64,000 nucleotides of DNA from Aureisphaera galaxeae (GTDB lineage Bacteria; Bacteroidota; Bacteroidia; Flavobacteriales; Flavobacteriaceae), in the NCBI RefSeq assembly GCF_028561275.1, contig NZ_JAQQTF010000007.1, positions 186,001 through 250,000 on the forward strand, in the 5' to 3' direction. This document shows, one piece after another, positions 3,857 through 39,144 of the stretch. The notes beneath the pieces are model-generated. The model saw nothing but the letters and a program-made list of their open reading frames with translations. It did no database searches and was not told the DNA's origin. The translations under genes and the position numbers were made by a program. How positions within the stretch are numbered: position 1 is the stretch's first letter; each line of letters begins with the position of its first letter.

Positions 3857-4969
3857 TTAGGGTTTTCGACAAACAACCCGCTTTACTCTTTGAGAGATAG
3901 CTGTTAATAATTCATAGGAAATACTGCCCATACTTTCGGCCAATTGCGAGGCAGTCTGATCGGCTCCCACAACGATTACCTCATCGCCTTCCTTACACTC
4001 TATTCCCGTGATATCGACCATGAGCATATCCATACAAACGTTTCCAATAATAGGTGCTTTTTGTCCATGAACCAGTACCGATCCGACACCATTTCCTAAT
4101 TTTCGGGAGATGCCATCCGCATGGCCAATAGGAATGGTAGCTGTCTTGGCGTAGTGCGTTGCCGTAAAGGCGCGATTGTAACCCACGGTTTCCCCAGGCT
4201 CTATCATATGTATTTGAGAGATGATACTTTTTAAGCGAGCCACAGGCTTTAGTTTGGCATCATATTCTTCAGTATTACCATAGCCATAAAGTCCAATGCC
4301 TGTGCGGACCATATCGAATTGTGCTTCGGGGTAATTAAGAATGGCCGAAGTGTTGCTTTGGTGTAGCATAGGAGCGTATCCAAGTCGTTCGGTCATATCG
4401 GCTGCGATCTTTTTGAAATTTTCAATCTGGCCCAAGGTGAATTCCTTCTCGCCCATATCTTCGCTGGCCGCCAAGTGAGAGAATAGGGATTTCACTTTAA
4501 TTGAAGTGGTTTCATTCAATCGTTCTTCGATCCAAGAAGTGTCACTTTCCCAGAAGCCCAAACGGTTCAATCCTGTATTGAATTTTATATGAACGGGATA
4601 GTCCTTCTGCTTTTTTTCTTCAGCAACAGCCACAAATGATCGGAATATACGTGCGCTGTACAGGGCAGGTTCCAGACAGCGATCTATTAAGATTTCAAAA
4701 TTGATGGGTTGCGGATGCAATACCAATATGGGTTGTGTAATCCCCGCATCACGCAAGGCTAACCCTTCCTTTACATAGGCTACGGCAAAATAATCGACCC
4801 CCAGGTTTACCAATTCCTTGGCCACTTCGGAAGCATCACTACCGTAACCAAAGGCTTTAACCACTCCCATGACCTTGGTATCGGATTGTAAGTGGGAAGT
4901 AAGGTAGTTGTAGTTGTGCGCAAGTGCGTCCAGATGAATTTCGAGAACGGTTTCTTGGGTCTTACTCAT
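3857..4969 (-). CDS. alr: Alanine racemase
   Basis: A PLP-dependent racemase making D-alanine for peptidoglycan. Lys38 in VVKAFGYGS is the PLP-binding lysine. The second catalytic tyrosine is in TVGYNRAF and the conserved CMDMLMVD segment follows. Its 370-residue length is normal for the fold-type III enzyme. It sits 15 bp downstream of tdk on the same strand, so the two are probably co-transcribed. The start 'MSKTQETVLEIHLDALAHNY' fits the family N-terminus. Confidence 0.95.
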   Translation of the reverse strand: MSKTQETVLEIHLDALAHNYNYLTSHLQSDTKVMGVVKAFGYGSDASEVAKELVNLGVDYFAVAYVKEGLALRDAGITQPILVLHPQPINFEILIDRCLEPALYSARIFRSFVAVAEEKKQKDYPVHIKFNTGLNRLGFWESDTSWIEERLNETTSIKVKSLFSHLAASEDMGEKEFTLGQIENFKKIAADMTERLGYAPMLHQSNTSAILNYPEAQFDMVRTGIGLYGYGNTEEYDAKLKPVARLKSIISQIHMIEPGETVGYNRAFTATHYAKTATIPIGHADGISRKLGNGVGSVLVHGQKAPIIGNVCMDMLMVDITGIECKEGDEVIVVGADQTASQLAESMGSISYELLTAISQRVKRVVCRKP

Positions 4970-4984
4970 AAAAGGGAAAGGGTC

Positions 4985-5626
4985 TTATTGGGCTCTTTTT
5001 TTAGGTGTCACCTGTTCGGGATCCTTCACATCCATTTTTCGAACTTTTTCACGCAATTGTGCTTTGTAAAAGGCAGCGCGGCTCAGTGGCTCGTATTCGT
5101 CGGTTTCACCCAATAGCACAAGGTCATCACTTTTTGCTTTTCGGTAGCTGTAGTTGGCAAGATTCCCGGTTCTAGTACATACGGCGTGTACCTTGGTAAC
5201 ATATTCTGCGGTGGCCATTAATGCAGGCATCGGCCCAAATGGATTGCCTTTGTAGTCCATATCCAACCCCGCAACGATGACACGCAGCCCTTGATTGGCA
5301 AGGTCGTTACACACTTTTACGATTTCGTCATCAAAAAATTGAGCCTCGTCTATACCTACGACGTCGCAACCATCGGCCAAAATGGGAATATTGGCTGCCG
5401 CAGGAACGGGCGTAGAGCGTATTTCGTTACTATCGTGAGAGACTACCTTGTCATCGTCGTAGCGAACATCGACAGCAGGCTTAAAAATTTCCACCTTTTG
5501 TCGGGCAAATTGTGCCCGTTTCAGTCTACGGATGAGTTCTTCTGTTTTTCCCGAAAACATCGAGCCACAAATCACTTCAATCCACCCAAATTGCTCTTTT
5601 TGGTTTACAGTATTTTCGAGAAACAT
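4985..5626 (-). CDS. tdk: Thymidine kinase
   Basis: Phosphorylates thymidine in pyrimidine salvage. The P-loop [15 protein letters not shown] (type II, TK1-like), the Walker B-like '[10 protein letters not shown]', and the thymidine-binding lasso region '[21 protein letters not shown]' are seen. Length is 213 residues. Not all four zinc-binding cysteines of the E. coli enzyme are evident, as in some family members. It is the first gene of a probable tdk-alr unit, divergent from the gene at 5727. Confidence 0.95.
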
Positions 5627-5726
5627 AACTTACTTTCAGAATAAAACGTAAAACTTTGACGTTTACGTAAAGGATGCGTAAATTTAACAAAACAAAAAAT
5701 AGGAAGGCACTTTAATTGGAAAAGTT

Positions 5727-6527
5727 ATGAAGAAGAAACTTCGGTCACAGATAAAGGATTTAGCCACACAGATCCTTTCCGAAAATTCCGAAAACAATAC
5801 TCGAAAAATGAAACAACTGGCACGGGAGCTTTTCGAGAAGCTCACAGTGTTGGAGTATGTGGAAGTTCAGTTGTTAGGCGATGTGGATGAAGAGGCAGAA
5901 GAGCAGTCTTTGGACTCCAAGAGCTACCGTGAGAACAATTGGTTTAAAGAACCAGAGCCAGTTCCACAGCCAGAGCACAAAGAAGAGTTGGTAGAACCCG
6001 CCATAGAAAAGATCAAGGATATCGTGGCACAAATGCCCGAAGAGACCCAAAGTGTAGATGCGCTTTTGGAGGAAGTCCTTCCCAAAAAGGAATTCAATAA
6101 AAATGATTTGGAAGAGTTTGCTTCTTCCTATCAGGAAATGCCGGTTTTTGAACGTAAGGAAGAAAACAATGTGGCTACCGAGGTAAAGCTTACCATAGAA
6201 ACCACAACGGAAGAAGAACCTGAGCCGGAGATGGAGTTAGAGGAAAAGGTGACTGCGAACGATGTAGAACGTCCCAAATCTATTAACGATGCGGTTGGCA
6301 AAGGCCTTCAGATTGGACTGAATGATCGTTTGGCCTTCGTGAAACACCTTTTCGATGGTAAAAGCGAAGACTATACCCGAGTACTATCACAAATAAGTAC
6401 GTTTGGTACATTCGAAGAGGCCGAAACCTTCATCAAAGGAAAAGTAAAACCCGATTACAATTATTGGCTCCATAAGGACGATGTTTCCAAACGTTTTATG
6501 AAGATCGTGGAGCAGAGCTTCAATTAA
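5727..6527 (+). CDS. Conserved acidic hypothetical protein
   Basis: A 266-residue soluble protein without signal peptide. It has a basic helical N-terminus (about residues 1-50), a long low-complexity acidic middle rich in Glu and Pro (about 65-180) and a globular C-terminal block 'SINDAVGKGLQIGLNDRLAFVKHLFDGKSEDYTRVLSQI' to the end. The C-terminal block reads as the conserved part and the acidic stretch as a linker. I do not recognise a named family. It is followed after 24 bp by a DoxX-like gene and then rsmI on the same strand. Confidence 0.7.
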   Translation: MKKKLRSQIKDLATQILSENSENNTRKMKQLARELFEKLTVLEYVEVQLLGDVDEEAEEQSLDSKSYRENNWFKEPEPVPQPEHKEELVEPAIEKIKDIVAQMPEETQSVDALLEEVLPKKEFNKNDLEEFASSYQEMPVFERKEENNVATEVKLTIETTTEEEPEPEMELEEKVTANDVERPKSINDAVGKGLQIGLNDRLAFVKHLFDGKSEDYTRVLSQISTFGTFEEAETFIKGKVKPDYNYWLHKDDVSKRFMKIVEQSFN

Positions 6528-6551
6528 TTGAAATCTACATAACCAACCCAA

Positions 6552-6905
6552 ATGAAACTGCAAAAGACCATTTATTGGATTGCAACAGTGCTGCTTTGTG
6601 GCGTCATGTTGTATTCCGCATCCATGTATTTCACCAAGACCGAAATGGTGAAGGGATTTTACGAACGTTTAGGATATCCAACTTATTTGGTAATACCTCT
6701 TGCCGTTGCTAAAGTTCTGGGAGTCATTATGGTCTTGTGGCGAAAAAGCAAATGGCTAACCGAATGGGCGTATGCAGGATTCTTCTTCGATCTTGTATTG
6801 GCTTTTTTTGCACATTACGTCTTGGGCGATGATGTCACCTTTACGCTTGCTGCCGTTGTCTTTTTATTGCTTTCCTATTTCTTCGGAAAGGAGGTCCGAC
6901 ACTAA
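6552..6905 (+). CDS. DoxX family membrane protein
   Basis: A 117-residue protein with four predicted membrane segments: about 7-26, 44-62, 70-88 and 94-112. The motif 'YLVIPLAVAKVLGVIMVLWRK' resembles the central part of DoxX-like proteins. Function unknown. Its stop codon is 3 bp before the rsmI start, so the two are almost certainly translated from one message. It is more distant from the DoxX-like protein at 1779-2180 than two copies of a recent duplication would be. Confidence 0.75.
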   Translation: MKLQKTIYWIATVLLCGVMLYSASMYFTKTEMVKGFYERLGYPTYLVIPLAVAKVLGVIMVLWRKSKWLTEWAYAGFFFDLVLAFFAHYVLGDDVTFTLAAVVFLLLSYFFGKEVRH

Positions 6906-17428: not shown

Positions 17429-17878
17429 TTAGTTATCGCTCGCAAACCACTCCGCAAAGCTCGTTTCGGTTTCCTGTAGTTTTAGCGAGTGCAGGGTGAT
17501 CCCAGCTGGCAATCGTTTTTTGATTTTATCGGCAAAGTCCAAAACCATCATTTCGCTGGTGGGTTGATAATCTACCAATAATACGTTATGATCACGATCG
17601 CTTAATTCTTTAGCCAATTCTACGTGTGGGGTGTTTTTGTTGAAAACCGTGGCATGATCGAATACATCGACGATCTCTTCCTTCACTATTTTCTTGAGAT
17701 CCCCAAAATCGATTACCATCCCGAATTTTACATGGTTGTTATCCGAAATGGGCTGTCCGATAACGGTAACCGATAGTTTATAGCTATGGCCGTGTACATT
17801 TCTGCATTTCCCATCATAACCATAGAGGGCATGACCGGTTTCGAAAGAGAACATTTTGGTGATTCTTATTTGCGCCAT
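17429..17878 (-). CDS. queD: 6-carboxy-5,6,7,8-tetrahydropterin synthase QueD
   Basis: A 149-residue 6-pyruvoyl-tetrahydropterin synthase family enzyme acting in queuosine (preQ0) biosynthesis. Zinc ligands are His in FETGHALYG and the VHGHSY pair. The downstream 'CRNVHGHSYKLSV' and 'VMVLDF-ADKIKKRL' segments fit. QueD is the most likely bacterial role; a pterin-synthesis role is the alternative. The start lies 2 bp after the stop of a 43-residue membrane protein gene, suggesting translational coupling. Confidence 0.88.
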   Translation of the reverse strand: MAQIRITKMFSFETGHALYGYDGKCRNVHGHSYKLSVTVIGQPISDNNHVKFGMVIDFGDLKKIVKEEIVDVFDHATVFNKNTPHVELAKELSDRDHNVLLVDYQPTSEMMVLDFADKIKKRLPAGITLHSLKLQETETSFAEWFASDN

Positions 17879-17880
17879 TT

Positions 17881-18012
17881 TTATTGCTTCTTTTTGGAAG
17901 AGGTTCTATGATATTTTCGGGCTTTCATCTTATTGTAAAGAACTACTATTACCACAAACAATCCGAGGACCATAAAAAGTCCGTTTCCACTTAAAAAATT
18001 AAGTATATCCAT
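17881..18012 (-). CDS. 43-residue single-pass membrane protein upstream of queD
   Basis: A short frame (ATG at 18010-18012, TAA at 17881-17883) encodes MDILNFLSGNGLFMVLGLFV and onward: a single hydrophobic helix (about 11-28) followed by a strongly basic tail ending KMKARKYHRTSSKKKQ. Its TAA is separated from the queD ATG by 2 bp. The start lies in the divergent promoter region shared with the sensor kinase. Basic-tailed one-pass micro-proteins are common, so function is open. Confidence 0.6.
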   Translation of the reverse strand: MDILNFLSGNGLFMVLGLFVVIVVLYNKMKARKYHRTSSKKKQ

Positions 18013-18045
18013 AATCGTAAAATACTGGGCATAAAAATACCACTA

Positions 18046-18074
18046 TTTTAGAAACTCAAACGGGCATTTCGGAA
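18046..18074 (+). promoter_or_regulatory. LytTR-type tandem operator, copy 1 (kinase gene)
   Basis: TTTTAGAA (18046-18053), 13 bp, then TTTCGGAA (18067-18074): imperfect direct repeats with a 21-bp period, the geometry expected for two LytTR domains. The -7 element TAGCTTTG follows 30 bp later (18105-18112). Copies 2 and 3 are at 21799 and 21967. Confidence 0.7.
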
Positions 18075-18079
18075 GTTGA

Positions 18080-21046
18080 ATGAATCCTCCTACCTCAAAA
18101 ATTGTAGCTTTGGTAAAATTTGGTCAGTTGTTGCGATTTTCCATAATCCTACTTTCTTTTTTATGCTTCGGAACCCTAGTCGCTCAGGAGCCCAGTGCCA
18201 TACACCTTACCGAAAAGGACGGCCTTCCCGATATTGAGTTCTACGATATGTTACCCGATCGCCAAGGGTTTATTTGGTTGGCGGCAGACAAGGGGTTGTT
18301 TCGATATGATGGAAAGACCTTCAAAAATTATTCGAACCCCGAAAAACGGGGACTTTCCGTTTTCAACCTAGTGGAGGACCCAAAGGGTCGTATTTGGTGT
18401 AAGAATATTTCAGGACAGATCTTCTACATCGAAAATGATGAACTGATCACTTTCATGGACTTGGAATTGAGCCTGTTGGGAGAGGCGTTTAATATCAACA
18501 TTCTCAACAATCAGCTCTATCTTTTTTTGAGGGATAAAGCGCTTATTGTCGATATTGAAACCAAGGACATTTTAGAAGTGGAATTTGACAAGCATGATGT
18601 AATTGGCAACGGGTTTGTTTTTAAGGGAGCTGTGTATAATATATACAATGATCAACTTTTGGAGTTTCACCCGGATGGTACAGCAAATTCCTTATTTAGT
18701 GTGGAGGAACTTGCCATTCCCGATCTACAATACCGTTTTTTCCTATTTCAGAACCAGCTTTTTATGTTGACCAAAGTGGACGGACGGAACCACTTGTATA
18801 TGGTAGATACCAGGGCACCGTCCATGAAGGAAATCGAGTTGCCCTCCGAGCTTTGGAGCCCAACATTGGTAAGGTTTGTAGGTGAAGGGAATACATTGTG
18901 GGTAGCTACTTCTTCTGGAGCGTTTCAATATGCTTTTTCACAGGAAAAATTCATTTTCAAAAACCACTTTCTGAAGGATAAGTTCGTAACCAAATTTTTG
19001 ATAGACCGTAATGGGAACTCTTGGTTTACCACGCTGGACGATGGTATATACGTATTGCCCAACATTCATGTAAAGCGCTACGAATTACCTGAAGAGTTGA
19101 ATCATATTTCCGCATTGAACAAGGTTTCGGAAGATGAATTTATCTTTGGCACTTTCAGCGGCAGGGCAGGACGCTATCGGATCATGGATCAGGAGTATGA
19201 TTTGTTCCCTAGGGATTTCGGAAGGGTGTCGGGAGTCTTCTACCATCGAGATTTGGAAACAAATTTCATTAGCCCGGATGGTGCTAGAAAAGGGTATGGC
19301 ATCTCCGATGCTGGAGAGGATGAAATGAACTTTTTGGTGAATGTAAAGGATTTTGCCATTGTGGAAGAAACCTCTTTTATGGTAGCACAATCGGGAAAGG
19401 CTATTATAGTGGATGAAGCGAAAAAAGGAACGTCTTCACATATGGAATTACTGGACTCCAAACGCTCTTATTCTTGTTATTACGATCGGCAAAAAAAAGA
19501 CTATTACGTAAGCTATGCCGATGCTCTGGTCCGACACGATTCTTTGCTTAATTCGCACCCTATTTTACATAATAATAGGTCCATTTTCGCTCTGGACATT
19601 ACCCAAACTGAAGACGGGATTATCTGGGTAACTACTTTCAATAATGGAATTTTGGGCATCGTAAACGATGAGGTTTTTGCTGTTTATAATACCGAAAATG
19701 GATTGGTGTCTAATCAAACCTCGAAAATACAGAATGAAGGTAATTTTCTTTGGGTGGCTACGGACTATGGCATCCAAAGAATTGATACTGAAACCGAAAC
19801 TGTGAGAACACTTACGCGACAGGATGGGATTCCTTCCTATAAAATTTCGGGAATAGCGGTATTGAAGGACAGAATCGTATTTGGTAGTAATCTCGGCATT
19901 TTTGAAGTGGATAGGAAACGAGCTTTTCGCCAACGTCCTCCCCCAAAAGTGTATTTTAAAAGTATAACCATTGCAAAGGAAGCACGTGAAATCCAAGAGG
20001 ATTATCATCTAACGTATGACCAAAACAATATCCGTTTCGATTTCCACGCCAATGGCTTCAATACGAACGAGAATATCGTTTATGAATACCGATTGTTGGG
20101 AGGAAACGAAAGTTGGACCTCCTTGGAAATGGGAGTTGACTTTGCTGAATTTGGAAGTCTCTCCAACGGCCAATATACGTTCGAGGTTCGGGCCAAAAAT
20201 GCCTTTGCCGAACAGGTATCGAAAGTACAACGGGTTTCCTTCAGCATTGCCTCCCCCTTTTGGGAGCGTTGGTGGTTTGTAGTGGGTTGTATTTCTCTGT
20301 TGCTGCTGTTCGTGATATTGTACTTCAATAAGCTTCAAAAGCGAAAGGAACGGGATAAAAACCTTGAGGTGAACCAATTGCAGTTGGAGAATCAGCTTAC
20401 CTCTTTAAAGTTGGAAAATTTGCGTTCGCAAATGAATCCACATTTCATTTTTAATGCGCTTAATTCCATTCAGGAATATATTGTACTCAACCAAAAACAA
20501 TTGGCCAGCGACTATTTGGGAAAATTTGCCGATCTGGTGCGCACCTACTTAAAGCACAGCGGTAAAGGAACGATTACACTTCAAGAAGAAATCGATTGTT
20601 TGGAAATGTACTTGGAGCTGGAACAAATGCGATTTGAGGACAAATTGAAATATAGCATCAGCAAAAGTCAGGATCTTTTCCCAGAAGAAATCCAAATTCC
20701 TACCATGCTTATACAACCATACGTGGAGAATTCATTAAAGCACGGATTGTTGCACAAAAAGGACAATTGTTTGCTCACGGTTTCTTTCAAATTTGCGGAT
20801 GATTTCAGAAATATTATTTGTGAAGTAGAAGACAACGGCATAGGAAGGGAACGCGCCATGGAGTATCTTAAAAAAAGAAAGAAAAACCATGAATCTTTTG
20901 CTACTAAAGCCAATGACGACCGCCTAGAACTATTGAATTACGAAAAGAAGAAAAAAATCGGGGTAGTGATCGAAGATTTGTACGATACGGAAGAAAACCC
21001 ATCAGGAACCAAAGTTACCATCACCATACCCTGTACAAAAGAATAA
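18080..21046 (+). CDS. Propeller-domain LytS-type sensor histidine kinase
   Basis: Signal peptide, then a large periplasmic sensor of two-component-regulator propeller repeats ('GLPDIEFYDMLPDRQGFIWLAADKGLFRYDGKTF'), a Y_Y_Y domain ('YRLLGGNESWTSLEMG...LSNGQYTFEVRAKNAF') near 660-720, one TM ('WWFVVGCISLLLLFVILYF') and a His_kinase/HATPase domain with the phospho-acceptor His788 in RSQMNPHFIFNALNSIQ. It signals to the LytTR regulator that starts 4 bp downstream. The start is doubtful: the -7 element TAGCTTTG at 18105-18112 lies inside the frame. A TTG at 18128 or 18131 would give a cleaner signal peptide, MLRFSIILLSFLCFGTLVAQ. Confidence 0.92.
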   Translation: MNPPTSKIVALVKFGQLLRFSIILLSFLCFGTLVAQEPSAIHLTEKDGLPDIEFYDMLPDRQGFIWLAADKGLFRYDGKTFKNYSNPEKRGLSVFNLVEDPKGRIWCKNISGQIFYIENDELITFMDLELSLLGEAFNINILNNQLYLFLRDKALIVDIETKDILEVEFDKHDVIGNGFVFKGAVYNIYNDQLLEFHPDGTANSLFSVEELAIPDLQYRFFLFQNQLFMLTKVDGRNHLYMVDTRAPSMKEIELPSELWSPTLVRFVGEGNTLWVATSSGAFQYAFSQEKFIFKNHFLKDKFVTKFLIDRNGNSWFTTLDDGIYVLPNIHVKRYELPEELNHISALNKVSEDEFIFGTFSGRAGRYRIMDQEYDLFPRDFGRVSGVFYHRDLETNFISPDGARKGYGISDAGEDEMNFLVNVKDFAIVEETSFMVAQSGKAIIVDEAKKGTSSHMELLDSKRSYSCYYDRQKKDYYVSYADALVRHDSLLNSHPILHNNRSIFALDITQTEDGIIWVTTFNNGILGIVNDEVFAVYNTENGLVSNQTSKIQNEGNFLWVATDYGIQRIDTETETVRTLTRQDGIPSYKISGIAVLKDRIVFGSNLGIFEVDRKRAFRQRPPPKVYFKSITIAKEAREIQEDYHLTYDQNNIRFDFHANGFNTNENIVYEYRLLGGNESWTSLEMGVDFAEFGSLSNGQYTFEVRAKNAFAEQVSKVQRVSFSIASPFWERWWFVVGCISLLLLFVILYFNKLQKRKERDKNLEVNQLQLENQLTSLKLENLRSQMNPHFIFNALNSIQEYIVLNQKQLASDYLGKFADLVRTYLKHSGKGTITLQEEIDCLEMYLELEQMRFEDKLKYSISKSQDLFPEEIQIPTMLIQPYVENSLKHGLLHKKDNCLLTVSFKFADDFRNIICEVEDNGIGRERAMEYLKKRKKNHESFATKANDDRLELLNYEKKKKIGVVIEDLYDTEENPSGTKVTITIPCTKE
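18105..18112 (+). promoter_or_regulatory. -7 promoter element of the kinase/regulator operon
   Basis: TAGCTTTG is an exact TAnnTTTG match placed 30 bp after the copy-1 tandem operator, similar to the two other copies (31 and 33 bp). It lies inside the longest reading frame of the kinase. Confidence 0.55.
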
Positions 21047-21049
21047 GAT

Positions 21050-21796
21050 ATGAAGGCAATCATTATAGATGACGAACCCAAAGCCCGGAAATTGCTTCAA
21101 GTACTCTTGGAAGAAAATTGTCCTGCGGTAGACGATATTTACCAAGCTGGGGATTTGTTGGCAGGGGTAGAATGCATTAAACAGGAGCGACCCCAAATCG
21201 TGTTTCTAGATATTGAAATGCCCCAGCATTCGGGATTGGAAATCGTGGATTTCTTGGATCGTGAGGAACTCAATTTCGAAATTATTTTTACGACAGCCTA
21301 TAGCGAATACGCCATACAGGCCTTCGAGCTTTCGGCCGTAGACTACATCCTGAAACCGCTTCGTCCTAGCAAAGTAGTCGATGCCGTGGAAAAGGCGATG
21401 GCTTCCTTGGGAAAATCGCAAGTGCATGTAAAACTGGAAGAGCTCAAGGCCATACTTTCCTCTTCGCAGTTCAAGAAGATTGCTTTACCCGTGGCAGAAG
21501 GCATCCGCTTTGTGGAATTTGATAAGATCATCATGTTAGAGGCCAATGGTATGTATACTAAGATAAGCATGATCGATGAGGAAATACTCATTAGCAAGCC
21601 CTTGAAGCATTTTGTGGAATTGCTTCAGAAAGCACCTACCTTTTATAAACCGCATCGTTCCTATCTCATCAATTTGGCGTTTATTAAGCAATATGTAAAA
21701 AGTGATGGCGGATATATCCTTATGGATAACGATAGGGCCGTCTCCATTTCCAAGGATAAAAAGGACGAGTTTTTGAGTATCGTCCAGAGTTTATGA
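21050..21796 (+). CDS. LytTR-family response regulator
   Basis: A 248-residue regulator: receiver domain with acidic pocket 'IIDDEP', phospho-acceptor Asp54 in VFLDIEMPQ, Thr in 'TTAYSEYA' and Lys in 'DYILKPLRP'. The C-terminal half is a LytTR DNA-binding domain ('VEFDKIIMLEANGMYTKI...KPHRSYLINLAFIKQY'). It is 4 bp from the kinase and surely co-transcribed. The three 21-bp-period direct repeats around it are good candidates for its binding sites, including autoregulation. Confidence 0.95.
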   Translation: MKAIIIDDEPKARKLLQVLLEENCPAVDDIYQAGDLLAGVECIKQERPQIVFLDIEMPQHSGLEIVDFLDREELNFEIIFTTAYSEYAIQAFELSAVDYILKPLRPSKVVDAVEKAMASLGKSQVHVKLEELKAILSSSQFKKIALPVAEGIRFVEFDKIIMLEANGMYTKISMIDEEILISKPLKHFVELLQKAPTFYKPHRSYLINLAFIKQYVKSDGGYILMDNDRAVSISKDKKDEFLSIVQSL

Positions 21797-21798
21797 CC

Positions 21799-21827
21799 GT
21801 TTAGAAGTCGAAAAGCGCATTTCAGAA
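21799..21827 (+). promoter_or_regulatory. LytTR-type tandem operator, copy 2 (behind the regulator)
   Basis: GTTTAGAA (21799-21806), 13 bp, TTTCAGAA (21820-21827). It starts 3 bp after the regulator stop codon. A TAGTTTTA -7-like element follows at 21859-21866, and a terminator at 21917-21948, with no gene between. Confidence 0.65.
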
Positions 21828-21870
21828 ATCGCGATGAGTTTTTGGGAGGGGAATCATTTAGTTTTACCCT

Positions 21871-21948
21871 GCCTAATGAAACGGAGTACTAACTGACCAA
21901 GTTTATTTTTCAAGGTAAGACTGTCAAAATTTTTGGCAGTCTTTTTTT
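21871..21948 (+). ncRNA. Candidate small RNA between two LytTR operators
   Basis: If transcription starts a few bases after TAGTTTTA (21859-21866), a transcript of about 75-80 nt would run to the terminator at 21917-21948. It contains only a six-codon frame starting at the ATG near 21877-21883. Alternatively it is just the 3' end of the kinase/regulator message. Confidence 0.35.
21917..21948 (+). terminator. Intrinsic terminator after the LytTR regulator
   Basis: AAGACTGTCAAAA (21917-21929) pairs with TTTTGGCAGTCTT (21931-21943), with the inner A-T part probably open as loop, followed by a T-run to 21948. Confidence 0.85.
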
Positions 21949-21966
21949 ATTCCCCATATCCCATTC

Positions 21967-21995
21967 TTTTAGAAATTCAAAACGGGGATTCAGAA
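21967..21995 (+). promoter_or_regulatory. LytTR-type tandem operator, copy 3 (secreted-protein operon)
   Basis: TTTTAGAA (21967-21974), 13 bp, ATTCAGAA (21988-21995), 21-bp period. A CATATTTG -7-like element follows at 22029-22036, 33 bp after the site, and the operon starts at 22059. A 13-bp palindrome TTTCTGTCAGAAA lies just downstream at 21997-22009. Confidence 0.7.
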
Positions 21996-22058
21996 ATTTC
22001 TGTCAGAAAAAAGAAACAACTCAATTCATATTTGCATCAGCATTAACGACCAGCAATT

Positions 22059-23408
22059 ATGAAAAAATCAATCCTCTTTTTACTTCTAGCCATGTGCTTC
22101 GGAATAGCAAAAGCACAACAAAACCAAAACGAAATCCTACAACAATATGCTTCTGGAAAGTATGCTGTCTATAAAGTAAACGCCAAGAAAAAATTCGAAA
22201 AAGTAAAGAAAACTTGGCCATTGGAAATATCCAGTGAAGGAGGACAGGCTTCCAAGGTGTTGGTAAAGCGCTCTGGGATTTTAGATGAAAACTTTGAAGT
22301 AGACGTACCCGGATATCCCGCCTATTTCGGTTATAAAAATTATAGGCTCACCTTTCTGAAAAACTACGCTGCCTATTACGAATGGAATGGGAAGCAACAG
22401 GCAAAGGTGAAGTACATATTCGTAAAAGAAGGAGGTTCTTTCGGGAAGAGCTTTACCGATACCAATACGGAAATTGCTAGTTATGCAAAGGCCATTTTTG
22501 CCAACCAATCTTCGGCCAGAGCCGATGTGAAAAAGGAAAAGAAGGCCTTGGCCGAAGCTGAGCGACAAGCAAACTCCTTAGAAGGGAAATCGGTAGCAAA
22601 GATTGAAGTGGAGTGGATCAATCCGCCACAAAAGATCTCTCATTTCAGCAAATCCATTGACTTCGGAATTGTAGCAACCCTAAAAGATGGGTCGCAACTT
22701 AAAACCCCAAATCTGGGAGGAAAATTACCATGGAGCGATTTCGAATTTTCCAACGTGGGATGTAGCAATACTACAGAGCGAGTAAATGTAGAAGAGGATG
22801 CTTCTAAGATTCCGAACGATAAAGTGGTCGTACGGGCTACTTCTAGGTATCATCCCTCCCTCAAGGCCCAGAAGAGCTTGGCGACCACGAATGATATTTC
22901 CATCCAGGTGAGCAGGAATGGGTTTTATGGGGCCGACCGTGCAAGAGCGACGGGAATGGCTACCGTGGGAGCCAGTCAGCGAGGTGGAAATGGCCATAGT
23001 CTTACCGTAAAAGTGAAGGGCGGCAAGAACAAGCAGACGGGTATGCCCATGAACAAAATTCAAATTTATGATGAGAGTGAGCGTAAAGTAATCGCTCGAT
23101 ACAAACTATCGCCTGCTACCCAACTCATTCTTAATGTGAACGGAGGAAAAGGACAATGGGGAAGCGATGGTTCCAGCGCCAGTTTCCCGAATGGTGATGA
23201 CGGCGGAAATGGTGGAAATGGCGGTACTATCACCATCCTGAAAGATCCCTCGGTCACCTCTATGAACATTACCGTGAATAACAAAGGTGGTGCTGGTGGT
23301 GCTGGTGGAAAGCGATACAATGTAAATGGAACATCTGGTAGCACCGGAAGAAGCGGTAGTACTGGTAGCAACACTACCAAAACACAATCTGTAACACTTG
23401 ATTTTTAA
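22059..23408 (+). CDS. Secreted glycine-rich protein, first gene of a LytTR-controlled operon
   Basis: A 449-residue protein: signal peptide (MKKSILFLLLAMCFGIAKAQ), a basic N-terminal third, a Lys/Glu/Ala helical stretch (about 155-180), and a C-terminal low-complexity region (about 345-440) of GG, GN and GS repeats such as 'GGNGGNGGT' and 'GGAGGAGG'. The glycine-rich part recalls collagen- or glycine-loop-type surface proteins. No T9SS sorting domain is visible. It is not a member of a family I recognise. The copy-3 operator lies 64 bp upstream and the next secreted protein gene starts 25 bp downstream. Confidence 0.75.
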   Translation: MKKSILFLLLAMCFGIAKAQQNQNEILQQYASGKYAVYKVNAKKKFEKVKKTWPLEISSEGGQASKVLVKRSGILDENFEVDVPGYPAYFGYKNYRLTFLKNYAAYYEWNGKQQAKVKYIFVKEGGSFGKSFTDTNTEIASYAKAIFANQSSARADVKKEKKALAEAERQANSLEGKSVAKIEVEWINPPQKISHFSKSIDFGIVATLKDGSQLKTPNLGGKLPWSDFEFSNVGCSNTTERVNVEEDASKIPNDKVVVRATSRYHPSLKAQKSLATTNDISIQVSRNGFYGADRARATGMATVGASQRGGNGHSLTVKVKGGKNKQTGMPMNKIQIYDESERKVIARYKLSPATQLILNVNGGKGQWGSDGSSASFPNGDDGGNGGNGGTITILKDPSVTSMNITVNNKGGAGGAGGKRYNVNGTSGSTGRSGSTGSNTTKTQSVTLDF

Positions 23409-23433
23409 CTATAGAACCAATTTAAATTTTAGT

Positions 23434-24660
23434 ATGATGAGAAAACAAACAATAATCACGGCACTTTTAAGTCTGTTCCTAATCATAGGGATTAGCAACA
23501 CGGCCGAAGCACAATTCGGGAAGAAAGCCAAACAGGCCTTAGGATTGGGTAAAAAAGGCAAGAAGAAGAAGAAAGGAAAAGGCGGAGGATCTGCCAAATT
23601 TTCGGACTTCAACAATGAAGCTGATGAAATGGGCGTAACCGGACAATACTTCGAATTGAAAGATGGGAAAGCCTATGGATTCCGATTCGTAAAGGAAGCC
23701 GATGGAAAAATGGTGAACCAGTTGCACTATTTCGAATCCAAGGGAGATCCTGCCCTAAAAATGGCCATGAAAGAAAGCTACTATAACAAGTACCAGGTGA
23801 AATTGTTCTTTGAATGGATGAGCGCTAGTTCTTCAGGATATATAGAATTGATTGAGGTAGACCCAGGGGTATTGGCCCAGATAAAGAGTGACCGTAGCCT
23901 GAACCGCTATGAAGATCCTGTGCCATTGGATGCCGAGCGTACCGTGATCAATGTGTATGCAAAAGACAAAGCAGCTTTCGATACATGGGATATTGAAACG
24001 GCTCAAGCCAAAGTAGATATGGTGGTAGGAACCTTGAAAGGAGCGCAAGGCGAGAAGATTAAGAAGAAGTTGATGCGTTTCGAGGTGTACAAAAACTACA
24101 AAGGGAAGATCGCTTTTGCCAAAGGAACTAACTACTTGCGTAACCAGAAGGACAATCAGCCTATCGAGAAGCCAGAAAACTTCATTACCAAAAGAGAATT
24201 GGGGTCTACGGTAGCATTTAAACCTTATTTCGAGCAGCCATTGGAGCAGAGCCACCCAGGTGCATGGTTCAATATTACGTATGAAATGGCGGGTGTAAAA
24301 ACCGATAGAGAGGCCTTGCGTAAGTCCAGTTCTACTTTTGCGAAGAACATTCCGCAGATCGACAAAGACAAAGATAAGTTCTACTTCTGGTATCCTAAGG
24401 TGACCATTAACACCTCTAATAATGTGGCCGATTACGCCTTCTTGGAGTTGTTGCGTTTGGCTCAAGATAAACTGCAAGCGGGTCAGACCTATGATCTAAA
24501 AGTGACGGTTTGGGCTCATAAGGACGGAGAAAACCTAGATCCAGTGGCACAGGGGACCATTCAGTTGGAGTATACCGCCGAAGCCAATGGAACACAAAAA
24601 TTATTATTCGACCCCGTAGACGGTTGGGTAACCAAAATAGAAGATGTTTTAGATGAGTAA
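23434..24660 (+). CDS. Secreted protein with lysine-rich N-terminus, second gene of the operon
   Basis: A 408-residue protein: signal peptide ('QTIITALLSLFLIIGISNTAEA'), then a very basic Gly/Lys stretch ('GLGKKGKKKKKGKGGG', mature residues about 10-30) and a globular remainder rich in Lys, Asp and aromatic residues with a long central domain. No recognised family, no sorting domain. The start is ATG 23434 (tandem ATG at 23437). It is followed by a strong terminator. Co-expression with the glycine-rich protein suggests a joint envelope structure or matrix; inference only. Confidence 0.72.
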   Translation: MMRKQTIITALLSLFLIIGISNTAEAQFGKKAKQALGLGKKGKKKKKGKGGGSAKFSDFNNEADEMGVTGQYFELKDGKAYGFRFVKEADGKMVNQLHYFESKGDPALKMAMKESYYNKYQVKLFFEWMSASSSGYIELIEVDPGVLAQIKSDRSLNRYEDPVPLDAERTVINVYAKDKAAFDTWDIETAQAKVDMVVGTLKGAQGEKIKKKLMRFEVYKNYKGKIAFAKGTNYLRNQKDNQPIEKPENFITKRELGSTVAFKPYFEQPLEQSHPGAWFNITYEMAGVKTDREALRKSSSTFAKNIPQIDKDKDKFYFWYPKVTINTSNNVADYAFLELLRLAQDKLQAGQTYDLKVTVWAHKDGENLDPVAQGTIQLEYTAEANGTQKLLFDPVDGWVTKIEDVLDE

Positions 24661-24706
24661 TACGTTGGTGTTAGGATTGTCTTAGACTTATACAATCCGT
24701 TTGGTC

Positions 24707-24742
24707 GGCCAGGTTGTTGAGGAGCAGCCTGGCCTTTATTTT
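24707..24742 (+). terminator. Intrinsic terminator of the secreted-protein operon
   Basis: GGCCAGGTTG (24707-24716) pairs with CAGCCTGGCC (24725-24734) over 10 bp with one wobble, followed by TTTATTTT. It overlaps the 3' end of the convergent MATE gene by 7 bp. Confidence 0.85.
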
Positions 24743-26073
24743 ACCAGCACATAGTATTTTCTCCAGTACTTAATGATCAAGGCCAGGGCGCGGTAAGCCA
24801 CCCAAACGATCATAGCGAGCCAAATGCCGTAGAGCTCCCAATCTAAATATTTGGTTACGTATAAAACGGGTACGAAACCAAATAACGTAGCTCCCAGAAG
24901 AACGTTTCGCAAATACCCCATTTCTCCCAATCCCTTAAAAATGGCATCCAATGTAAATGCTAGAGAACAGAAAGGAAGACTTATAATGACCATGTAAAAA
25001 ATATCTTTGAACAAGGAAATGACCTTGGCATCATCGTTAAAGAATCCACCGATATAATCATAACCCGCTACTCCCAATAGCATGAGCAACAAAGCGACTA
25101 CTAGGTTATAGGCATTCACCCGTTTGGTCACGGTCCAAAGGGCTTTAAAGTTTTGTTCTCCCAGAAGTTTACCTCCCAGAATATTTCCTGCAGCGCCATA
25201 GCCATCGATAAAGAAGGCGGCGAATATCCAGACATTATAGGCAATTACATGGGCTGCGATGTATTCTTTTCCTAAATCTGTCGCCTCTCGGGTTGCTAGA
25301 ATAAGTGCTGCATTCAATGCAATGGATCGCAAAATAAGATTCGCACTCATTACAATGAGACGATGTATTTCTGGATGAATATCCCGTTTCAGCCGAAGCG
25401 AGACATCTGTTTTTTTCAATAGTAAAATCAAGGAAAGCAATGCCATGATTGCCTGTGAAACAAGACTGGCCCAAGCCGCTCCAATTACATTCATGGGTTC
25501 GATAACATCGGGAATACCGTAGACAAGGGCAAAGTCCAAAATCACGTTGATTCCGGCACCGATGGCCGCAATGATCATGGGCCAAAATGTATTCTGAAGT
25601 CCCCGGAACAAGCCAAAAACGGCAAAGGTGAACAGGGTTAATGGGAACCCCCAAACCCGTATGTTATAATAGTCTACGCTGAGGTCCAAGATCATCCCCT
25701 TTGCATTAAAGAGAATGAAGATTTCTTCCACAAAGAAATAAGTGGAAAAGAGTACGATGATGCTCAACGCAATATTGTAGAAAATTGCTTGTGCGGGAAA
25801 CCGTTTCAATTGTTCAATTTTCCCGGCACCCAGATTTTGAGCAACGATTGCGGCAATGGCACTTCGGGTTTGCGCCAAAATCCAAATGAGCGCAGATAAA
25901 AACGACCCCACGATCCCTACAGCAGCCAAGGACTCCGTTCCGTATTCGGGAATATTCCCAACAATAGCAGTGTCCGTAATAGACAGCACAGGCTCTGCTA
26001 CACCTGCAATAATAGCGGGTATGGCCAGCTGTTGGATTCGGGAAAAAGAGATATTGGTTTCTGAAGATTTCAA
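24736..26073 (-). CDS. MATE family efflux transporter (DinF/NorM type)
   Basis: A 445-residue multidrug/toxin extrusion protein with about 12 membrane segments in two bundles. The N-terminal 'QLAIPAIIAGVAEPVLSITDTAIVGN' is typical of the MATE family, and a similar pattern appears in the second half. Cation-coupled export is the family role; the substrate cannot be told. It reads convergently with the secreted-protein operon and divergently from the T9SS cargo gene. Confidence 0.92.
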   Translation of the reverse strand: MKSSETNISFSRIQQLAIPAIIAGVAEPVLSITDTAIVGNIPEYGTESLAAVGIVGSFLSALIWILAQTRSAIAAIVAQNLGAGKIEQLKRFPAQAIFYNIALSIIVLFSTYFFVEEIFILFNAKGMILDLSVDYYNIRVWGFPLTLFTFAVFGLFRGLQNTFWPMIIAAIGAGINVILDFALVYGIPDVIEPMNVIGAAWASLVSQAIMALLSLILLLKKTDVSLRLKRDIHPEIHRLIVMSANLILRSIALNAALILATREATDLGKEYIAAHVIAYNVWIFAAFFIDGYGAAGNILGGKLLGEQNFKALWTVTKRVNAYNLVVALLLMLLGVAGYDYIGGFFNDDAKVISLFKDIFYMVIISLPFCSLAFTLDAIFKGLGEMGYLRNVLLGATLFGFVPVLYVTKYLDWELYGIWLAMIVWVAYRALALIIKYWRKYYVLVK

Positions 26074-38405: not shown

Positions 38406-39144
38406 CGTAAATGTACTTGTTGTAGAAGATGTCCCGTCGGAAAGCAGTTCTTTGGTCAAAATGCTTTTGGAGAATAACTATGAAGTCGTTGGGGTGGCGC
38501 GAAATTTTAAGGATGCAATGACCTTATTCTACAATTCGAAAGTAGATGTAGTCATTATCGATATTTTTTTAAACGGGGTTCCGGATGGGATTTCTTTCGC
38601 CGAGGCTATCAATATTACCCCGAACGCATCAAAACCCTTTGTGTTTTTAACCAGTTCCACAGACCGTAAAATATTCGAAAGGGCAAAACTCACCCAGCCC
38701 TTTAGCTATTTAATAAAGCCCTTTAACGAATTGGAGATTTTGTACGCTATCGAAATGGCCATAGAACGGTTTTACGAACAAAATGAGGTGTTTTTGGGTG
38801 AAGAAGAGAATACAGTCATAAGCACCGAATACTTATTTATAAAAAAGGGCAAGTCTTTAAAGAAGGTACTTCTAAACGAAATCATTTATATAGAAGTGGA
38901 AGAAAAGTACTGCAATATTGTGACCGAAAGGGAAAAATTTGTCATTCTAATATCACTTACTAAAATGTTAAAGATGTTAGATGATAGGATTTTCTGTAGA
39001 ACGCACAGAAACTTCATTGTGAATACCCATAAAATTCTGGAGATAGTGCCCGCAGACAACCTTATTTTGTTATCGGGAAATCATAAAGTTACGCTTAGCC
39101 ATAAATACAAAGAAATCCTGAAAAAGGTCCGAACCTTAAAATAG
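38398..39144 (+). CDS. LytTR-family response regulator, second copy
   Basis: A 248-residue regulator: receiver with 'VVEDVPSESS', Asp55 in VVIIDIFLNG, and Lys in 'YLIKPFNELE'; a LytTR domain with 'IKKGKSLKKVLLNEIIYIEVEEKYCNI' and 'RTHRNFIVN'. I start at the ATG at 38398, overlapping the kinase stop by 8 bp; an upstream in-frame ATG at 38356 lies inside the kinase. A HisKA kinase paired with a LytTR regulator is less usual than the LytS pairing at 18-21 kb. Confidence 0.92.
   Translation: MTNVNVLVVEDVPSESSSLVKMLLENNYEVVGVARNFKDAMTLFYNSKVDVVIIDIFLNGVPDGISFAEAINITPNASKPFVFLTSSTDRKIFERAKLTQPFSYLIKPFNELEILYAIEMAIERFYEQNEVFLGEEENTVISTEYLFIKKGKSLKKVLLNEIIYIEVEEKYCNIVTEREKFVILISLTKMLKMLDDRIFCRTHRNFIVNTHKILEIVPADNLILLSGNHKVTLSHKYKEILKKVRTLK

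Follow-up and report, generated by a model that had tools for sequence, protein, structure and literature searches.

The 64,000-nucleotide stretch of Aureisphaera galaxeae DNA considered here (contig NZ_JAQQTF010000007.1; the window) contains genes for a histidine kinase and a response regulator with a LytTR domain, followed by two genes, T1 and T2, for predicted secreted proteins. Copies of a direct repeat, a putative operator, lie upstream of the kinase gene, directly behind the regulator gene, and upstream of T1. We consider it very likely that this module is a self-contained two-component circuit, in which the regulator would activate both its own kinase–regulator operon and the T1–T2 operon via the shared operator. 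An earlier note on this DNA had named the regulator encoded at 21050 as the owner of a shared LytTR-type dimer site; conservation of the site in relatives, and its replacement together with the regulator, make this the most likely assignment.

Operators and promoter boxes of the module

All three repeats described in the earlier note lie where it placed them, each with 0 mismatches to its pattern. The improved motif reads TTYAGAARYT-N11-TTYAGAARYT, with half-sites of about 10 bp separated by 11 bp and a period of 21 bp; direct repeats of this form upstream of a promoter fit the description of LytTR sites (9–11 bp, 11–13 bp apart). The −7-like elements reported behind each repeat are likewise present, 27, 28, and 28 nt after the 31-bp operators, and match the Bacteroidota sigma-A −7 consensus TAnnTTTG, as given in the available text of PMC9723704, at six of six positions at site 1 and at five of six at sites 2 and 3. 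The core features are as follows.

18047..18077, + strand: operator 1, kinase promoter, TTTAGAAACT-N11-TTCGGAAGTT; pattern match, leave-one-genome-out matrix p = 0.001 (floor)
18105..18112, + strand: −7 box TAGCTTTG of the kinase promoter; 6/6 to TAnnTTTG, 27 nt after operator 1
18080..21046, + strand: histidine kinase with Reg_prop, Y_Y_Y, and His_kinase profile matches (longest open reading frame, ORF, from ATG 18080)
21050..21796, + strand: response regulator with LytTR domain; PF00072 at 1e-21 and PF04397 at 4.1e-15, both above cut-off
21800..21830, + strand: operator 2, orphan, in relatives the promoter of the small secreted-protein gene S; pattern, alignment
21859..21866, + strand: −7 box TAGTTTTA behind operator 2; 5/6 to consensus, 28 nt after operator 2
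21968..21998, + strand: operator 3, promoter of the target operon; pattern, matrix
22027..22034, + strand: −7 box CATATTTG of the target operon; 5/6 to consensus, 28 nt after operator 3
22059..23408, + strand: target T1, 449 aa; signal-peptide-like N terminus (by eye), Gly-rich C-terminal part
23437..24660, + strand: target T2, 407 aa; signal-peptide-like N terminus (by eye)

The evidence from the window alone is modest: the earlier pattern, allowing up to two mismatches, has 4 matches in the 64 kb against a shuffle mean of 0.84, and 2 of 100 shuffles reach the same number. A fuller pattern, which adds the conserved AAA and G of the spacer to the earlier motif, has three matches with up to two mismatches in the whole 4.59-Mb genome, all of them in the module and with 0 matches for the reversed-pattern control, although this genome encodes 40 LytTR domains. 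A later, differently written consensus gave three extra genome matches at up to three mismatches, each with three mismatches; these are noise, since the reversed control gave 5. The pattern by itself is not diagnostic, because 176 of the 199 genomes searched in the family have at least one match to the fuller form with up to two mismatches, and many of them are matched by the reversed control too; the position and the −7 box carry the evidence.

Conservation of the operator in relatives

Eight T1 loci were named, one of them on a G060 contig, and at all eight a kinase core, a LytTR regulator, and T2 adjoin, the regulator at L064 being a different one. Loci L036 and L065, which lie on one contig, were counted once. 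The T1 gene of L036 (7564–8903) is split in frame, through either an assembly error or decay, and was left out of the T1 alignment. G204, from the same genus, has kinase, regulator, and S; a further gene begins at the very end of its contig and was taken as T1 on account of its position and signal-peptide-like start. G956 provides one further module. Ten modules, including that of the window, have an orthologous regulator (58–80% identity to the window regulator).

Whether the operator is absent from relatives that keep the genes had been set beforehand as the test. It precedes T1 in 10 of the 10 modules with an orthologous regulator, G204 being counted although its T1 is cut by the contig end, and it precedes the kinase in seven of the nine modules in which the kinase start is covered (G000, G204, G921, G922, G924, G928, and G925, the last assigned by synteny only). 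G923, whose contig begins inside the kinase, stands outside the kinase tally. Of 26 promoters tested with a leave-one-genome-out matrix, 22 gave the site at p = 0.001, the lowest value attainable with 1000 dinucleotide shuffles; the four without it were the kinase and regulator promoters of G926 and the kinase and T1 promoters of G927. Leaving out one genome at a time was not fully independent for G921 and G922, which are near relatives; G956 and the G925 kinase site stood outside the matrix set, and the G924 T1 site entered the matrices one base out of register.

The spacing is kept as well. For 24 sites in 10 genomes, the best −7 box was sought within 5–59 nt of the operator; 27 or 28 nt is the sole best position in 21 and ties with other places in two (the kinase sites of G204 and G925), and G928 T1 has a 4-of-6 box at 28 nt and a 5-of-6 box at 8 nt. 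Across 10 genomes with a T1–T2 or a kinase–regulator pair, 22 of 28 consensus matches with up to two mismatches, and 13 of 14 with up to one, lie beside module genes or a regulator copy. The single exception at the stricter threshold falls in a coding sequence, which we take to be Obg-like. On contig C188 of G925 (L091), a second regulator copy ends 78 bp before an operator copy, near the contig end. A related kinase–regulator pair in G156 (L039) has neither an operator nor a repeat behind the regulator, and G156 has one two-mismatch match elsewhere.

Regulator and operator word replaced together

The strongest support for ownership comes from co-replacement: where the regulator differs, the promoter word differs too, giving two regulators and two words in one promoter frame before one target operon, which suggests that the regulator owns the operator. 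In Reichenbachiella faecimaris (G927, L064), the regulator is 32% identical to that of the window and no operator copy was found, the genome-wide search giving only three three-mismatch matches against 4 for the controls. The target promoters of G927 and G936 carry another word, CGAATANTCAT, in three copies at 21-bp steps, with 28 nt to the −7 box. At the G927 T1 promoter, CGAATAGTCAT and CGAATACTCAT lie 21 bp apart with TAGTTTCG 28 nt behind (p = 0.0015–0.002, mononucleotide shuffles), and a weaker third copy of the word stands another 21 bp upstream. In G936, whose T1 and T2 are 31% and 29% identical to those of the window, TAGTTTTG follows the three copies, themselves 21 bp from one to the next, after 28 nt (p = 0.0004, mononucleotide shuffles). 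The regulator encoded ahead of T1 there shows 72% identity to the G927 regulator over its last 25 residues. A further site with the G927 word (two mismatches) precedes an operon in G927 whose first protein has a signal-peptide-like start. When up to three mismatches were allowed, the G927 word had two three-mismatch matches in G000, and the reversed control had one match each in G927 and G926.

Proposed circuit and alternative explanations

In the circuit that we infer, the propeller of the kinase would sense an envelope or extracellular cue, and the kinase would phosphorylate the LytTR regulator. Two regulator molecules would occupy the two half-sites, whose spacing of 21 bp corresponds to two helical turns, and bring RNA polymerase to the −7 box 27–28 nt downstream; the operator would then stand at about −71 to −40, an activator position. 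Bound in this way, the regulator would activate its own kinase–regulator operon, a positive feedback, and the adjacent T1–T2 secreted-protein operon, while the middle operator would formerly have driven a third target, S, its promoter now reading only into a terminator.

Several observations weigh against this circuit. No operator was found upstream of either the kinase or the regulator in G926, and G956 yielded the T1 site alone, with none before the kinase. Autoregulation is accordingly not universal. In G924 the kinase site is weak, and 372 bp separate it from the first ATG of the called ORF, the true start of which is unsure. No copy of the G927 word was found before the G927 kinase. Co-replacement comes from two genomes, G927 and G936; for the G936 regulator only the last 25 residues are available, and the G936 copies match the G927 word at 7/10 positions each.

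The sign of regulation is not fixed by promoter geometry, and binding might instead repress, with the regulator shutting its own operon and T1–T2. We regard repression as quite improbable, because the operator stops about 40 bp short of the expected start, clear of the −7 box at 27–28 nt, and the known LytTR repeats just upstream of a promoter that are described in the available text of PMC6193735 and PMC4847170 act in activation. The operator might also be bound by another regulator, whether through one of the 39 remaining LytTR domains or as some unrelated factor, with this region as its target; LytTR domains are abundant (40), and one more is encoded in the window at 38857–39126. This seems highly improbable, given that every genome match with up to two mismatches sits in the module and that, among the 12 modules examined, the site occurs with the orthologous regulator (10) and another word occurs where the regulator differs (2). 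That the repeats arose by chance in A+T-rich DNA is hardly credible: the loose two-mismatch pattern does appear about once per window in shuffles, and 176/199 family genomes have at least one match to the fuller pattern, but chance is refuted by the conservation, with a fixed position and a near-fixed −7 spacing across 10 genomes.

The middle operator and gene S

The earlier note had counted the repeat behind the regulator with the other two. Here no evident gene is served by this site, and relatives use it as the promoter of the small secreted-protein gene S. Two further features follow it in the window.

21867..21916, + strand: stretch from promoter to terminator where relatives carry S, with a 6-codon ATG...TGA at 21876–21896
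21917..21950, + strand: intrinsic terminator; 12-bp stem at 21917–21943 plus T run

Four relatives, G204, G921, G923, and G924, have S immediately downstream of the regulator, with the site between the two genes as its promoter; a terminator-like stretch and then the T1 operator come next. S is a protein of 105–106 residues with a signal-peptide-like start. In G922, S is placed after an extra gene (L059, 3230–7196), which has its own operator copy and encodes a 1291-residue protein with InlB-like repeats and a Por_Secre_tail domain between regulator and S. The operator lies upstream of S in all five modules that have S. In the alignment of the window with relatives, the operator and terminator region are kept and S is missing, the aligner having put the −7 box with the distal block, and a G204 S query against the whole genome returned nothing up to E = 10, in a search without a positive control in that genome. 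Since operator and terminator are kept while the gene is missing from both alignment and genome search, operator 2 is apparently a relic promoter of S, which would have been lost here.

Alternatively, the middle site may produce a functional small RNA of about 80 nt or serve as a spare site that titrates the regulator. Operator 2, its −7 box, and the terminator are all intact, and the fold of the predicted 81-nt transcript, in which the terminator forms the main stem, has an energy of −21.1 kcal/mol. We consider these possibilities unlikely: on either side, the sequence aligns with the promoter and the terminator between which relatives carry S, the gene alone being absent, and no Rfam match was found over 17800–24760. 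Furthermore, no second site was found in G925 and G928, where the space is too short for S.

Kinase and target proteins

The description of a LytS/LytTR module in the earlier note stands for the kinase core (His_kinase, PF06580, 3.4e-24 in a profile search) and the LytTR regulator, and fails for the sensor, which is a Reg_prop/Y_Y_Y propeller. Besides the core, only Reg_prop and Y_Y_Y were matched in the kinase at E ≤ 0.001, and the LytS-type multi-pass membrane sensor family was not. With ATG 18080 as its first codon, the kinase ORF would include the −7 box of operator 1. Translation therefore probably begins further in, at TTG 18128 or 18131, immediately ahead of a signal-peptide-like stretch; the relative L038 has an in-frame ATG downstream of the −7 box. 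The kinases of the window and G204 are of the propeller type, with about 990 residues, and the L058 kinase (4762–6621), the one relative scanned with Pfam, has TPR repeats. The remaining module kinases are shorter and differ at their N termini, two of them being cut or having an unsure start. In a kinase-core tree, the window core groups with the module kinases (91/82 for the eight module rows, 98/96 with the G156 kinase), and the G927 core falls outside this group on a long branch, its placement unsure. Since the cores group together while the sensors differ, the circuit seems to have swapped its sensor input (TPR or propeller) while retaining its output.

No Pfam or NCBIfam family was found for T1 (at E ≤ 0.001) or T2. 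The structure model of T1 had a mean predicted local distance difference test score (pLDDT) of 72 and a predicted template modeling score of 0.43, with no PDB match at E ≤ 0.001; that of T2 had a pLDDT of 50.5, and the T2 profile had no PDB match up to E = 1. In a profile search, the C-terminal, Gly-rich part of T1 resembles the Obg-type GTPase MTG2 (1.3e-4); the match may be one of composition only and gave no functional assignment. The LytTR domain had two weak PDB matches (3.5e-4 and 0.18). In genome samples, T1 was found in 2 of 199 genomes of the family, its own included. T2 was found in its own genome alone, both among 395 genomes of the order and among 395 of the phylum; in the G927 family, 4 of 196 genomes have T2. 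The module is rare in the sampled genomes. One further feature closes it.

24707..24744, + strand: intrinsic-terminator-like stem and T-rich tail after T2; terminator scan

Repeats behind other LytTR genes

The 300 bp behind the stop codons of all 40 LytTR genes were scanned for repeats of 20–22 bp with a −7 box, using 1000 and 300 mononucleotide shuffles for the statistics and 87 other ORF ends, some of which are probably not genes, as controls. At p ≤ 0.01, repeats were found behind 7 of 40 LytTR genes, one of which is that of the module, versus 0 of 87 control ends in the same loci; at p ≤ 0.05, the numbers were 8 of 40 and 5 of 87. Of the other six at the stricter threshold, L119 (a longer repeated stretch, box at 18 nt) and L099 (220 bp away, poor box) are doubtful. 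The words differ: CCGTTTACTGC occurs twice at L103, CCATTGATCAC/CCATTCATCAC at L107, and ACGCYTATC three times at 21 bp at L130, and an ORF with a hydrophobic N terminus follows the repeat at all three (G000 contigs C2 and C12). The other LytTR domain of the window (L118) lies 17 kb downstream; no repeat below p = 0.3 was seen in the scan behind it. A promoter scan of other LytTR operons missed the known kinase site, and its blanks carry no weight.

These repeats hint at a general scheme. Flavobacterial and cytophagal genomes that encode dozens of LytTR regulators may avoid cross-talk between them by using private words in one frame, regulator and word being exchanged as cassettes, an idea to which we give equal credence and doubt. 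The frame would consist of 20–21-bp repeats with about 26–32 nt to the −7 box, often right behind the regulator and before a target, with targets and geometry staying the same; we neither favor nor discount this part of the proposal. How tens of paralogous LytTR regulators per cell keep their targets separate is, to our knowledge, an open question. Paired natural variants for it are available in the module (two regulators and two words on one target operon, in a single promoter frame), and further candidate words exist elsewhere in the genome, so that recognition could be read from sequence. The module also presents what seem to be two separate exchanges on a kept circuit, that of the sensor (TPR or propeller) and that of the regulator–operator pair.

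Comparison with known systems

YpdA of Escherichia coli has a LytS membrane sensor, whereas the module kinases here carry a propeller or TPR repeats. The YpdA/YpdB–yhjX system resembles the module in combining a LytS/LytTR-type kinase and regulator, and the YpdB direct repeat GGCATTTCAT has, in the oligonucleotide of the paper, the same 21-bp period (PMC4847170, available text). GCATTTC in the second half is common to the YpdB repeat and operators 1 and 2 and is lacking in operator 3. Unlike the YpdB site, the half-site here reads TTYAGAARYT and the −7 box is of the Bacteroidota type; yhjX encodes a putative transporter, whereas the targets here are predicted secreted proteins.

Autoregulation by LytTR proteins through direct repeats upstream of a promoter is well documented in the available texts (PMC6193735 and PMC4847170; gamma-proteobacterial comparison, PMC5552118). 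Such autoregulation is therefore already known, and the informative point is the co-replacement of regulator and word; a search of the LytTR literature by title, with most subscription papers outside it, found nothing on the module or on private words. HdrRM and BrsRM of Streptococcus mutans show positive autoregulation via two direct repeats immediately upstream of the promoter, mostly with 12 bp between them (PMC6193735). They pair a LytTR regulator with a membrane inhibitor, whereas the module here has a kinase and a receiver domain; with these two present, it was not classed as a LytTR regulatory system (LRS). LRS-like operons of Bacteroides thetaiotaomicron and B. ovatus encode a membrane protein and a membrane-bound LytTR regulator rather than a two-component pair, and their repeats, 11 bp long and 11 bp apart, precede a TATCTTTG −7 box (PMC6193735). 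Their sites differ in word, in period (22 versus 21 bp), and in the distance from repeat to −7 box (34 versus 27–28 nt), but in the text available they follow the same grammar in the same phylum and are the nearest precedent found there.

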